In this document: piece by piece, positions 5,141 through 33,917 of the stretch | How positions within the stretch are numbered: the stretch's first letter is position 1 | Layout of the letters: every line of letters starts with the position of its first letter | Origin: PVC group bacterium (ex Bugula neritina AB1) | GTDB taxonomy: Bacteria > GCA-001730085 | Reading direction: 5' to 3' | Assembly: GCA_001730085.1 (NCBI GenBank) | Contig: MDLB01000097.1 | Span: 1 to 34,095, forward strand | DNA length: 34,095 nucleotides | Made by a program: the position numbers and the translations under genes | Notes under the pieces: model-generated | What the model saw: the letters and a program-made list of their open reading frames with translations, nothing else | Databases searched by the model: none | What the model was told of the DNA's origin: nothing

Positions 5141-6717
<1,577 letters not shown>

Positions 6718-6920
6718 TAAAAGCTTGAAATCCACAGCGCTATAAAGCACTGGAAAAAATACTTTTCAATTTTAAAAAGAAAATAACCTTAAAGGTTTTT
6801 TCTAAGAAAAAAGGAAAGTACTATTAATAATTTTGGAAATGACTTTTCGCACAAACTATCAAACCTATCCTATTAAATTTTTAAAGATCGTCTCCGGCTA
6901 AGCACCAGAGGTAGAAGAAA

Positions 6921-10922: not shown

Positions 10923-13022
10923 TTAAGACGCCATCAATGAACGATATTTTTTTGTTTTACGTGTTTTTTGATAAAAGTTTAAAACTACCAAAAAAACAGC
11001 GCTGATATTATCATTCAAATTATTCTTATTTACACCCATTGATGTATCTATAATATTTAAAGTTAAAAGAGGATCAAAGTCAACTGATTTAATATCTTCT
11101 CCATCAACAAAACCTATCAAATGATTTTCAAAATATTGAAACATCAGTCTCTTTTCAGACTCAGAAAAGTTTTCAAGAAAATAGACAAGCAAGCAAATAC
11201 TTATTTTTATTTCATCCACACCTAGTGATCGAAATAACGCTGGAAACAAAAAGATTTTTGCCCACAATGTTGCTCCTTTTTCATTATTCAAAATACCTTT
11301 CTCCAAAAAATGAAAAATATTTTCCCTCAACTTCAAAACATTTCCATCTTTTAAATAAGTTTTATCTAAACTTGAAAGATACTTGGAGCCTGCTTCATAA
11401 ACATATTTTTGTCGCAAAAAATTTTGCCTTCTAAACATTTGCTTTATAAATCTAGACTGACCAAACCCTATATAGTTTAAGTATTCCGAAGAAATTTCCT
11501 CAACACATTCCTGTATAAGAGAAGCCCACGGATCACTTTTCTGACTAATTTCCGACTTTCTTCCACGATCCACAAAATCCTCCTCAAAACCTTCCTTCAT
11601 TATATAAAAAAAGTAATCTTGAAAAACAATATAAGCCAGAACATATTCAATTTGCTTAAAATGATCACTTTTAGTAAAAAAAGACCGAAAATCCATTGAT
11701 TTTTTCAAGACTTTTTTCCCATTATTAAGAGCTTCATCACAAACACTCACAATCCTCTTATATTTCATTTTGATATTATCTGAATAATAGGCCGCTTTAC
11801 TCAACTCTAAAGAGGATTTACGAATATTTTTTATGTCTTCAATCAAAACATCTCGATGCTTTTTGTAAATATTTTGTAGAAAATATTCATGCTTTTTTAA
11901 ATGTTTTGTCAAAAGGAGAATAACTTGATTATCTTTTCCTTGTCTCAAATAATAGCTCTTTTCTTGACCAAGATTACCCGACTTTTTAATAATAAAAAGC
12001 CCTCTCAGCCGATCAATAAAAGCACTCAAATCTTTTAAGTCAACATCAGCTTTTTGCGCTTTATCAAATACAAGTAATATTTTTTGAATCCCATCCGTCT
12101 TTTGCAAAAGATCTTGCAACTCCCCTGTTGATATTTTTGTTGGCATAAGATCTAAAATATTTTTCATCAAGTCTCTTTCTATAGAAGAATCTTCAAAAAA
12201 ATATCCACTGGTTTTAATATGTTTTAAGATTTGCAAGTACCACAAAAATTGAATAGATTTTAAAGAGGTAGCTCGTGCTTTTTCCATTTCTAGCAAAACC
12301 GCTTCAACAAAAGTCTTTGGAGCTTGTCCCAAGAAAACCTTTCCCCAGTTATTATCACCTGTCTTTTCCTCTATACTTTCTTTTGATTTTTTTTCAAACA
12401 AAGCAAGGTCTATTTTCTTTTTTAAATCATAAATACGTGAGTCTAAAAATCCCACTCTATTCTGACTTTCCAAAGAAGGGACGATCTCAACATGGATACC
12501 TTTTTCTTTAAAATCAAATATTAACAACCCTTTCTTCTCATCAATACGCAGGGTCATCCAATCACCTGAAAGCAAGGTTTCTTTTATTTTTTTTTGTAAA
12601 CTTTTTTTTGAATAAATATTAGGTAAGTTGCAAATAAAGCCATTTAAAGAGAAAATTTCACCAGAGGGCCAATAATACTTTTGAAAAAAAAGATTCTCAT
12701 CCTCATGATATTGATGATAAATCCGGATCTCAACTTTACCAACTTTTTGATTTTTAGAAAAAAGATCCTGAAAAGAAACTCTCATAGAAGACGTTTCTTG
12801 TATTTGCTTATTTACGCTTAAGTTTATTTTTTTTAAAAGGGTCAATTGATCAAACAAATATTTTTGTTCTTTTTGGAAAAGATCTAATTCATCTTGCCAT
12901 AAAAAAAGCTCCTCGACCTCAGAAGATGCAAAGCCACTCACAAAAAAGAAAAAAACAAGCCAAAATATTTTATAAAAAAAAACTCGACTTCTATCAAATA
13001 TCATAAAATTTGTCTGCAACAT
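10923..13022 (-). CDS. Large exported protein of unknown function (699 aa)
   Basis: Not recognised. The N-terminus has a hydrophobic stretch (about 16-32, FYKIFWLVFFFFVSGFASS) typical of a signal peptide with a possible cleavage after FAS, so the protein is probably periplasmic or surface-located. The rest is rich in Lys, Glu, Phe and Leu, mostly helical in appearance, with a coiled-coil-like start (about 45-65) and no further clear membrane segments. No cysteine cluster, P-loop or other catalytic motif is visible. ATG start with a purine-rich GAGGGGATAGAAG upstream. It lies between the small lipoprotein gene and queE, all on the minus strand, but the gaps (114 and 59 bp) do not require co-transcription. 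Confidence 0.8.
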   Translation of the reverse strand: MLQTNFMIFDRSRVFFYKIFWLVFFFFVSGFASSEVEELFLWQDELDLFQKEQKYLFDQLTLLKKINLSVNKQIQETSSMRVSFQDLFSKNQKVGKVEIRIYHQYHEDENLFFQKYYWPSGEIFSLNGFICNLPNIYSKKSLQKKIKETLLSGDWMTLRIDEKKGLLIFDFKEKGIHVEIVPSLESQNRVGFLDSRIYDLKKKIDLALFEKKSKESIEEKTGDNNWGKVFLGQAPKTFVEAVLLEMEKARATSLKSIQFLWYLQILKHIKTSGYFFEDSSIERDLMKNILDLMPTKISTGELQDLLQKTDGIQKILLVFDKAQKADVDLKDLSAFIDRLRGLFIIKKSGNLGQEKSYYLRQGKDNQVILLLTKHLKKHEYFLQNIYKKHRDVLIEDIKNIRKSSLELSKAAYYSDNIKMKYKRIVSVCDEALNNGKKVLKKSMDFRSFFTKSDHFKQIEYVLAYIVFQDYFFYIMKEGFEEDFVDRGRKSEISQKSDPWASLIQECVEEISSEYLNYIGFGQSRFIKQMFRRQNFLRQKYVYEAGSKYLSSLDKTYLKDGNVLKLRENIFHFLEKGILNNEKGATLWAKIFLFPALFRSLGVDEIKISICLLVYFLENFSESEKRLMFQYFENHLIGFVDGEDIKSVDFDPLLTLNIIDTSMGVNKNNLNDNISAVFLVVLNFYQKTRKTKKYRSLMAS

Positions 13023-21612: not shown

Positions 21613-22653
21613 TCATATCATCACAATATCATGGCTCTTCATTTCTTTATTTTTTTTAAAATCCGTTTTAAAGCTTGCCCATACAGATCTATGCTCATCT
21701 ACAAATATTTCTCGCCCATACTTTGTTTTTTTGAAACGTTTTTCTTCAAAGCTATCTTCTCCAGATTGATTCGTGAATTCTGGAAAAGAATCCCGAGAAA
21801 AAATGATATTGCTATTTAGGTCCTTCGGGTTAGAACCAGACCCTTCTTGATTTGCAAGAATAATATCCTTATCGACACTCATCAAATGTGACAAAGATTC
21901 ATCGAATGCCCTAAGTCCAAAGTTACCCATAACCATTATACTTTTTCTACGGATTTCACGCCCTCTTAAACGATCATAAGCATCTCCAAGTCTTTCCATC
22001 TCTATCCCTAAAGCTTCCCTATTTTTAGCATTAAGGTCGACATTCAGAGCAAGATATTCAAGATTGCCAGACTTAAAAACAGCATAGTAAGGTGTTTTCT
22101 GAAAAATAAACCTATTGGAAGTTAAAAGCCTTGCTCTTTGAACAACCTTAACTTTATGTTTCAAAAAAAGGAATGCCAGTTTTTCTTTTTGGGTTTTCCC
22201 CACCCACGGACTAACCATGGCCTCATAGATCCTTCCAAAGCGTTTAAGTTTATCAATCACGATTTCAAGATTGTCTTCATTCCGAATACCTTGCAAAGCA
22301 ATAAAATCATATTTTTTTAAAGTATCAACAATATTTTTCATATTTTCTTTTTTGAAAAAATCTTCTGAGAAAACAGAAAAATTAACCGTACAAACTCTTA
22401 GCTTTGAACGATCATCCCTTACAATGAAGCTCTTTGCCTTTGCAAAATTTTCATAAAAATAATATAAACCTCGATCTCTGATTTTTTTTATATTATTCTC
22501 TATAAAATCTTTTTTTAGATCTATTGACAAACGTTCCTTAACAAATCTTTTTGAAAAAATATCATCTTTTTTTAAGGAAGACGTTTCGTAAAAGTGCACG
22601 CCATATATAATAGCTCCCATAGCCAGAATCAATAAACATACGTTCTTTTTCAC
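21613..22653 (-). CDS. Membrane-anchored, catalytically degenerate endonuclease/exonuclease/phosphatase (EEP) family protein
   Basis: 346 residues. An N-terminal hydrophobic segment (5-22) gives a signal anchor or uncleaved signal peptide. Residues 85-335 follow the order of the DNase I-like fold: RVCTVNF (usual tWN), YDFIALQGIRNED (usual LQEIR), KLAFLFLKHKV (usual FlYRkdkV), YLALNVDL (usual NxHL), IMVMGNFGLRAF (usual lGDFN) and FVDEHRSVWASF (usual SDHrPVwa). Only the first Asn and the final His survive. Metal-binding Glu is Gly122, the catalytic His is Asp206, Asp-Asn of GDFN are Asn244 and Gly246, and the last Asp is Glu320. An active nuclease is unlikely. The GTG start overlaps the stop of the preceding gene as GTGA, so the two are translated together. 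Confidence 0.75.
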   Translation of the reverse strand: MKKNVCLLILAMGAIIYGVHFYETSSLKKDDIFSKRFVKERLSIDLKKDFIENNIKKIRDRGLYYFYENFAKAKSFIVRDDRSKLRVCTVNFSVFSEDFFKKENMKNIVDTLKKYDFIALQGIRNEDNLEIVIDKLKRFGRIYEAMVSPWVGKTQKEKLAFLFLKHKVKVVQRARLLTSNRFIFQKTPYYAVFKSGNLEYLALNVDLNAKNREALGIEMERLGDAYDRLRGREIRRKSIMVMGNFGLRAFDESLSHLMSVDKDIILANQEGSGSNPKDLNSNIIFSRDSFPEFTNQSGEDSFEEKRFKKTKYGREIFVDEHRSVWASFKTDFKKNKEMKSHDIVMI

Positions 22654-31953: not shown

Positions 31954-33738
31954 TTAAGCAGATTTTCTTCTCGCTTGATCTTCTATCTCGAGCTTCATTC
32001 CTACAGATAACGAGGTTAAGGCACGCAAAGTATTCACTATAGAAGATTCTCCTCTTGAAGCTGATTCATTATCTGGCCACAAATCTTGGAATAAGTCACA
32101 CATGAATTTATTTTCCAGAAGTAGCATTTGAAAAGTTAAGACCTCTTCTAAAATATTGGAACTTCCTCCACGGACCTCTTCTAAAATATTGGAACTTCCT
32201 CCACGGACCTCTTCTAAAATATTGGAACTTCCTCCACGGACCTCTTCTAAAATATTGGGACTTCCTCCACGGACCTCTTCTTTAAGCTTTGCTAAATTTT
32301 CATTAAACCTTGGAATCTCTATTTTAATTAAATCTAGTTTATAATTACTTTTTTTTGTAAAGTAACTATCTCTATCTTTATCAAAATCATCTTTTAATGT
32401 TTGATTTAACCCTTGAAACAAGCCCTGTAGCTTTTCACTAACTACAGGAGTTTCTAGTCCAAATTTTCCTATCGGTTTATCTATAATACAGCATATTAAA
32501 TCACTTAAATGTCTATTTAATTGACCTATCAAGCTTTGAGATCTTGTAAAGACTTTTTTACGCAACCTTTCATACTCTATAAGGTTGATATTTTTTTCTT
32601 TTAATCTAGAAATAAGATCTTCAGTCTCTATTATATATCTATTAATAAGATTTATATTTTTTTTAGTTGCTTTTTTATATATATTTAAATTTTGAATTTT
32701 TACTTTTTTATCGCTATCTTTTTCTTTCATTAACGTTTCTTGTAATTTTGAAAGTATAACTATTTGAGACTCAAAATGTTCTTTCTGAAGCTCAATATAG
32801 CTTAATAAGCTATCATCATTTGCTTCTTTAACCCCAGCCCAAAGATCTTCTTCAAAAGCCTTAAATGATTCTGAATCACTAGGTTCCTCATCCGCATTAT
32901 CAATACCCATAGAAGTAAAAAGTGAATTTGACTCATTATTCTCTATTTTTCTTTCAACATACTCACTAGGAATATCAGAATTAAACTCATTAGAAGTGTG
33001 CACATAAGAAGCATCATCATCAGCAAAACCTGCCTCATCAAGTTCATTTTGAGAAACCTTACCTTCTTTAAAAGAAGATCTAATAATATGAATCGCCGGT
33101 ACAGCAAGTTCTAAAGCAAATAGCACCCAACACATAGAAAAAAGCCAAGCACAAGAGCTATCCTTCAATAAATAAAACATCTCAGGTCTAATTAAAAATA
33201 AAGCAAGAAAGAAACTTGCTATAATTAGAATAATTCCTGTGTACAAAAGAAAAAAAGCACAAAAAAGGTTGTGGTTTTTGCCCCCATATTCGGATTTATT
33301 CCTTTTAAAAATCCATGTTTTATTCCTAAAATTGACCAATAGCAACCCTAAAAAGATAATTAGTCCCAAACTAAAAAAAACAAAAGTTGCAATAACACTA
33401 TTTTCTTTAATAACAAAGATTTTTCCGAAAAACATCACCGTTGATAAGATTACACAAATGATAGGAATATGAAAAATAGATATAAATAAAAATTTATTCC
33501 ATTTCCATGAGGACTCGCTTAAAGGCACCCTCTCACCTTCATTAAGAGAAGTCGCTTCTATTGATCCGTCTAGATTAGGAAAGGGATTCTCAACATTGTG
33601 TATTGGTGAATCGGAAGAAGTGTCAACAACCTCCTTTCCTCTATAGCTAAAAGACTGTGTCGCTAACCCCCAAGAAAAATCTAAATACTGGTTTATTAAA
33701 AAAATTTGTATCAAAATAAAAAAAATATTTTTTTTCAT
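31954..33738 (-). CDS. Membrane protein with coiled-coil C-terminal half and 11-residue tandem repeats (594 aa)
   Basis: Not recognised. I chose the ATG at 33738 (start of MKKNIFFILIQIFLINQYL, a signal peptide or first membrane helix); a TTG at 33762 would add eight residues. Four further hydrophobic helices lie within about 80-235. An acidic linker (about 235-320) follows, then a long Lys/Glu/Leu-rich helical region (about 320-490) of coiled-coil character. Near residues 505-550 an 11-residue unit, EEVRGGSSNIL, is repeated four times, coded by perfect or nearly perfect 33-bp repeats. The C-terminus is helical and basic. Such a build suggests a surface or inclusion-type protein of a host-associated bacterium, but this is inference. 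Confidence 0.8.
   Translation of the reverse strand: MKKNIFFILIQIFLINQYLDFSWGLATQSFSYRGKEVVDTSSDSPIHNVENPFPNLDGSIEATSLNEGERVPLSESSWKWNKFLFISIFHIPIICVILSTVMFFGKIFVIKENSVIATFVFFSLGLIIFLGLLLVNFRNKTWIFKRNKSEYGGKNHNLFCAFFLLYTGIILIIASFFLALFLIRPEMFYLLKDSSCAWLFSMCWVLFALELAVPAIHIIRSSFKEGKVSQNELDEAGFADDDASYVHTSNEFNSDIPSEYVERKIENNESNSLFTSMGIDNADEEPSDSESFKAFEEDLWAGVKEANDDSLLSYIELQKEHFESQIVILSKLQETLMKEKDSDKKVKIQNLNIYKKATKKNINLINRYIIETEDLISRLKEKNINLIEYERLRKKVFTRSQSLIGQLNRHLSDLICCIIDKPIGKFGLETPVVSEKLQGLFQGLNQTLKDDFDKDRDSYFTKKSNYKLDLIKIEIPRFNENLAKLKEEVRGGSPNILEEVRGGSSNILEEVRGGSSNILEEVRGGSSNILEEVLTFQMLLLENKFMCDLFQDLWPDNESASRGESSIVNTLRALTSLSVGMKLEIEDQARRKSA
32141..32281 (-). repeat. 33-bp in-frame tandem repeat (4 copies plus partial)
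   Basis: Copies start at 32141, 32174, 32207 and 32240, with a partial fifth at 32273 (ACCTCTTCT). Three are identical and one has a single change (Ser to Pro, GGSPNIL). The near-identity points to recent expansion or contraction by replication slippage. Each unit encodes EEVRGGSSNIL. Confidence 0.97.
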
Positions 33739-33917
33739 CCCAGTAAGTTCCCCTAACTTCAAAAAAACCTCAAAAAAGTCTTTTTAAAAAATATCACCTT
33801 CTATCAAAATCTTTCCTAAGAAAGATTTTACAATAGTTTTTTATTTTGTAAAAAAATAATACTCTATACACGTATAAGTTTTTCTCTAAATCAAGAAGAC
33901 TTTTTAAAATAAGACTA

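Follow-up and report, generated by a model that had tools for sequence, protein, structure and literature searches.

A gene in the 34,095-nucleotide window (the whole stretch of DNA that was analysed) encodes a strongly degenerate, new variant within a known family, and recurrent losses among its relatives add to its interest. Sequence comparison identifies its product as a divergent member of the bacterial and archaeal secreted DNase I-like (MnuA-type) EEP branch. The explanation that we favour as a whole, with moderate confidence, is that the protein is a non-catalytic, membrane-tethered binding pseudoenzyme of this MnuA-type EEP family.

The gene, its locus and its upstream partner

The 346-codon ORF is a real gene with normal coding statistics, which overlaps the upstream ORF. 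At the local base composition, the probability of finding 346 open codons by chance is about 1e-11. Among the frames compared, only that of the ORF itself gave a positive codon score; its value of 0.256 falls within the range of the named neighbouring genes (0.157-0.361). The position given in the first-pass annotation was an exact match, and the intact frame that it had described is borne out by these values. The GTG start and the stop of the upstream ORF share four nucleotides (GTGA), an overlap preceded by the purine-rich stretch GAGGGGG. On one side the gene is flanked by a DHH-family phosphoesterase and on the other by an inorganic pyrophosphatase.

An overlap of 4 nt is typical of translational coupling. 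Of the earlier claim of co-translation with an exported partner the overlap is confirmed, and co-translation itself is likely; the upstream ORF is thus the likely co-translated partner of the EEP protein. The partner protein is basic (pI 9.15) and predicted to be exported. No homologues of it were detected among 386 genomes, and structure prediction (pLDDT 40) gave no usable model.

Elsewhere in the window, a 16S rRNA gene at 5143-6718 shares no more than about 77% identity with the plasmid-borne rRNA genes listed as its best matches. Together with the presence of a single other genome of the phylum in the sample, this low identity points to a deep, poorly sampled host lineage. Two further ORFs, at 10923-13022 (699 aa) and 31954-33762 (602 aa), gave no significant family match, and an incomplete ORF at the window edge (1-513) encodes an IS605 OrfB helix-turn-helix domain.

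Table 1. Features of the EEP gene and its upstream partner, with window coordinates
Feature	Position	Strand	Description
EEP gene	21613-22653	(-)	346 aa, GTG start; EEP-fold protein, membrane anchor predicted, active site dismantled
Partner ORF, 314 aa	22650..23594	(-)	Predicted signal peptide or anchor; EF-hand-like DINKDGKIDK loop; 4-nt overlap
N-terminal hydrophobic helix, residues 2-26	22576..22650	(-)	AlphaFold2 helix 2-26; hydropathy 2.28
EEP domain, residues 84-330	21664..22404	(-)	Homology to L013, L031 and others; AlphaFold2; Foldseek
N91 = DNase I N7, kept	22381..22383	(-)	Alignment with homologues
G122 = E39 (Mg-binding Glu), lost	22288..22290	(-)	E in 68/69 homologues
E157 = E78, kept	22183..22185	(-)	Alignment with homologues
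D206 = H134 (catalytic His), lost	22036..22038	(-)	H in 67/69 homologues; R in L030/L020
N244-F-G246 = D168-F-N170 (GDFN), both lost	21916..21924	(-)	D and N each in 68/69
S281 = D212, lost	21811..21813	(-)	D in 69/69 homologues
D319-E320-H321 = S250-D251-H252; S and D changed, H kept	21691..21699	(-)	Alignment

Family placement, predicted fold and active site

No Pfam, NCBIfam, PHROGs or phmmer-PDB match was obtained for the EEP protein itself, and annotation would miss the gene because of this lack of a direct family match. Scans of genomes and viral contigs with the query alone returned no relative, nor did the viral contig scan with the query plus L013. In a diverse whole-genome search an intact EEP protein was found, L002 of genome G023 (E 7.8e-12; BLASTP 7e-13), which matches Pfam Exo_endo_phos, NCBIfam MnuA and the DNase gamma and DNase I entries in PDB, so that the query is significantly similar to a recognised EEP protein. 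The wider genome sample yielded a stronger match (L013 in G317, E 4.5e-27), and a scan seeded with the group of this match gave 71 named loci spanning Poribacteria, Omnitrophota, Planctomycetota, Spirochaetota, Pseudomonadota and methanogenic/ANME archaea. The nearest relative, L031 from an Omnitrophota MAG, is 28% identical (BLASTP E 1e-36 over 324 query residues). It shares the query's layout of anchor, linker and domain, aligns with it from the anchor through to the C-terminus, and has every one of the nine catalytic residues. Against the NCBIfam model NF045851 (MnuA), for which the cut-off is 185 bits, the query was unmatched and L002, L014 and L013 reached 93, 48 and 47 bits, all below that value. 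The membrane anchoring that belongs to NF045851 is represented in the query by its predicted hydrophobic N-terminal helix.

In the tree the query stands beside L031; its terminal branch measures 3.5-4 changes per site, a length that makes the exact placement unsure. No close orthologue was found in the genome collections searched, and the one other genome of the same phylum gave neither a match nor synteny. Within the source genome (assembly 97.6% complete) no paralogue of the DNase I-like branch was found, the sole Exo_endo_phos match being an intact ExoIII. The idea of an inactive regulator of an active same-genome paralogue was ruled out on the same grounds.

The AlphaFold2 model, built on 54 aligned sequences, had a mean pLDDT of 80.5 and a pTM of 0.73. 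Values were mostly above 90 for residues 110-230, weaker in loops near 270-280 and 300-320, and of low confidence in the linker (residues 27-83). Foldseek returned DNase I (1atn_D) first, with E 1.6e-15 and TMt 0.79, and its leading matches were DNase I and DNase1L3 structures (including 7kiu_A; E 1.6e-15 to 3.9e-14, TMt 0.78-0.81). The predicted architecture is thus the four-layered alpha/beta sandwich of the DNase I-like EEP fold; the input alignment consisted mostly of active homologues, and the model is stronger evidence for the fold than for local geometry. The DNase I fold proposed in the first-pass annotation is therefore supported by sequence, alignment, model and structural matches alike, no different fold having emerged from the prediction, and the hydrophobic helix likewise speaks for the membrane anchor. 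This helix is predicted to be a signal anchor with its positive side in, placing the EEP domain outside the inner membrane.

Nine DNase I sites were scored (N7, E39, E78, H134, D168, N170, D212, D251 and H252), assigned by alignment and near-invariant first in 69 and then in 103 homologues. Six of them are changed in the query (E39G, H134D, D168N, N170G, D212S and D251E), which therefore lacks the set of nine conserved residues of a catalytically active EEP/DNase I nuclease and, by alignment and Foldseek, has the character of a pseudoenzyme, that is, an enzyme fold with required catalytic residues lost. In DNase I, metal sub-site IVa consists of D168/D212/H252 and IVb of N7/E39, and mutating E39, D168 or D212 singly leaves very little activity (PMC2987838). 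With both sub-sites broken and H134 lost, metal-dependent DNase-type hydrolysis is very unlikely, and from its residues we consider the query very probably catalytically dead. The order of the motifs and the changes from LQE to LQG, NxHL to NVDL, GDFN to GNFG and SDH to DEH are seen in the alignment as they had first been described. The accompanying statement that nearly all catalytic residues are lost holds in part: the change of D212 to S281 had been overlooked, and N7, E78 and H252 are intact. Catalytic residues at shifted positions were ruled out, the close relatives carrying intact residues in the same alignment columns.

Maintenance, decay and possible function

Losses at the active site are not confined to the query. 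L030 (= L020; Poribacteria, L030:2902-3771) carries H134R and H252R with its metal carboxylates intact, and its genome also encodes an intact paralogue (L013/L023). L086 (Pirellulales, 957-2033) has N7H, E39G, D168N, N170S and D251E in an open frame; its sister L066 is intact. In L117 and L119, from two genera of one family of Planctomycetota, most sites are lost and the frames are open. These two cluster together on the tree, with moderate support (97/75), at 38% identity, which suggests a degenerate lineage that persisted. Two further degenerate members, L118 and L125, each contain one in-frame stop in the match region and may be decaying, possibly pseudogenes. The exchange of E39 for Gly is found in the query, L086, L117, L119 and L125. 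On the tree the degenerate label needs five changes, at least three of which are forced by well-supported branches; as read from these sequences, active-site loss arose at least three independent times, including in the Planctomycetota and Poribacteria relatives.

Among near-invariant sites outside the active site, 15 of 25 were kept in the query and 10 lost, compared with three kept of the nine catalytic ones (p = 0.25). The loss is thus not significantly concentrated at the active site, and rapid divergence of the whole sequence once constraint had been relaxed would fit as well. Catalysis appears to have been lost with fold and frame kept, and selection targeting the active site does not follow from these data. 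Maintenance is supported by a frame that has stayed open along a very long branch, the neighbour-like codon score, the conserved core positions and the recurrent losses, and the query is probably still a functional protein. The first-pass annotation had seen a pseudo-enzyme kept for binding and not a pseudogene; the pseudo-enzyme is strongly supported, and on the same four observations its retention for binding is plausible.

The EEP domain of the query has a net charge of +10 and a pI of 9.5, the most basic of 104 domains compared; the 103 homologue domains average -13 (sd 8, maximum +5). R41 and R111 belong to the DNase I-DNA interface (PMC2987838). At the DNA-contact positions the query has kept R41, has Lys for R111 and Ser for R9. 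The neighbouring DHH, FolC and AccD proteins and the upstream partner are also basic, and part of the charge reflects the Lys-rich proteins of an AT-rich genome. Since the remaining degenerate members are acidic and some have not kept R41/R111, DNA binding is not common to them all. The most economical guess from these features is that the protein is possibly a tethered, non-cutting binder of DNA or another polyanion; that the ligand is a nucleic acid we propose only tentatively.

In the mechanism that we envisage, the signal-anchor helix would tether the protein in the membrane, its predicted DNase I fold lying on the outer side of the inner membrane. Without E39 one Mg sub-site would be gone, without D168 and D212 the other, and without H134 the catalytic acid/base, so that hydrolysis of DNA by the family mechanism would not occur, as the sequence strongly implies. 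What is retained would be a binding protein, whose likeliest ligand, given the basic domain, R41 and the Lys at R111, may be a polyanion such as extracellular DNA. Judging by the 4-nt overlap, the two proteins of this transcript, the EEP protein and its exported orphan partner, probably work together. A broader scenario, in which environmental bacteria repeatedly and independently converted their membrane-anchored DNase I-like nucleases to non-catalytic surface binders, the change from E39 to Gly recurring among them, and in which the query is an extreme basic case that holds extracellular DNA at the cell surface with its co-translated partner, seems to us rather doubtful as a whole.

The binding reading has to be weighed against simple decay, in which activity was lost recently in the source lineage and a functionless protein is left in a frame still unbroken. 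The very long end branch, the erosion of catalytic and other conserved positions alike, the lack of a paralogue and the lack of a match in the one other genome of the phylum would fit such a history. Against it, 346 codons are open with a codon score like that of the neighbours, coupling with the upstream ORF is intact, and the fold core is kept along with several near-invariant positions. A recent neutral event could hardly have produced so much divergence without a stop, although the catalytic loss may have come early or late on the branch, and we judge decay unlikely.

A re-wired enzyme, in which N91, E157 and H321 together with the new acids D206, D319 and E320 would build another metal site and confer another hydrolase activity, is quite improbable: neither known sub-site retains its anionic ligands (E39, D168, D212), and in DNase I already the single mutants at these positions have very low activity (PMC2987838). 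The retention of N7, E78 and H252 and the placement of the new acids at or next to active-site positions can nevertheless be read in its favour, as can USP53/USP54, which had carried a pseudoenzyme annotation and proved active (PMC12037411). That the protein is not an EEP protein at all, its motifs having arisen by chance, could draw on the missing Pfam, NCBIfam, PHROGs and phmmer-PDB matches of the query itself; the E values to L002 (7e-13), L013 (4.5e-27) and L031 (1e-36 over 324 query residues), the colinear motifs and leading Foldseek matches that all belong to the DNase I family reduce this to a negligible probability.

Comparison with known systems

The non-catalytic binding pseudoenzyme that we favour can be compared with several known systems. 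MnuA-type nucleases (NF045851) and the relatives L031, L013 and L023-L029 share with it the EEP domain with colinear motifs, an N-terminal anchor or lipoprotein signal, and export. They differ in keeping all nine active-site residues (L030 excepted), and the query is set apart by 20-28% identity, its very long branch and the lack of an NCBIfam match. Mammalian DNase I and DNase1L3 resemble it in predicted fold (Foldseek E ~1e-15, TMt 0.78-0.81), in R41 and, as Lys, at R111, whereas the query has lost 6/9 catalytic positions, has an anchor and is only ~16-20% identical. The ExoIII of the same genome (C81, L021) has the EEP fold as well, but is cytosolic, has intact motifs (LQE, GDYN, SDH) and belongs to a different branch.

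In a limited literature search no paper was found that joins the term pseudoenzyme with the DNase I/EEP superfamily, and pseudoenzymes of this superfamily appear to be little described. Should these losses turn out to be maintained, they would demonstrate that the DNase I fold lends itself to use as a tethered binder, which bears on the capture and uptake of DNA and on biofilm DNA; homology-based annotation of such genes as nucleases would be mistaken. Parallels in kind are the Planctomycetota proteins L086, L117 and L119, which like the query have open frames and several active-site losses, with E39 to Gly in all three, but which have a separate origin on the tree, are acidic and have lost other residues. 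Such separate losses in distant relatives suggest that the fold is sometimes retained for binding instead of cutting. Repeated catalytic loss within a nuclease family is also described for the fungal Dis3/RNase II pseudonucleases (PMC8097288), a product of which is reported to bind nucleic acid (RNA); their fold is unrelated, and their function is experimental where that of the query is inferred.
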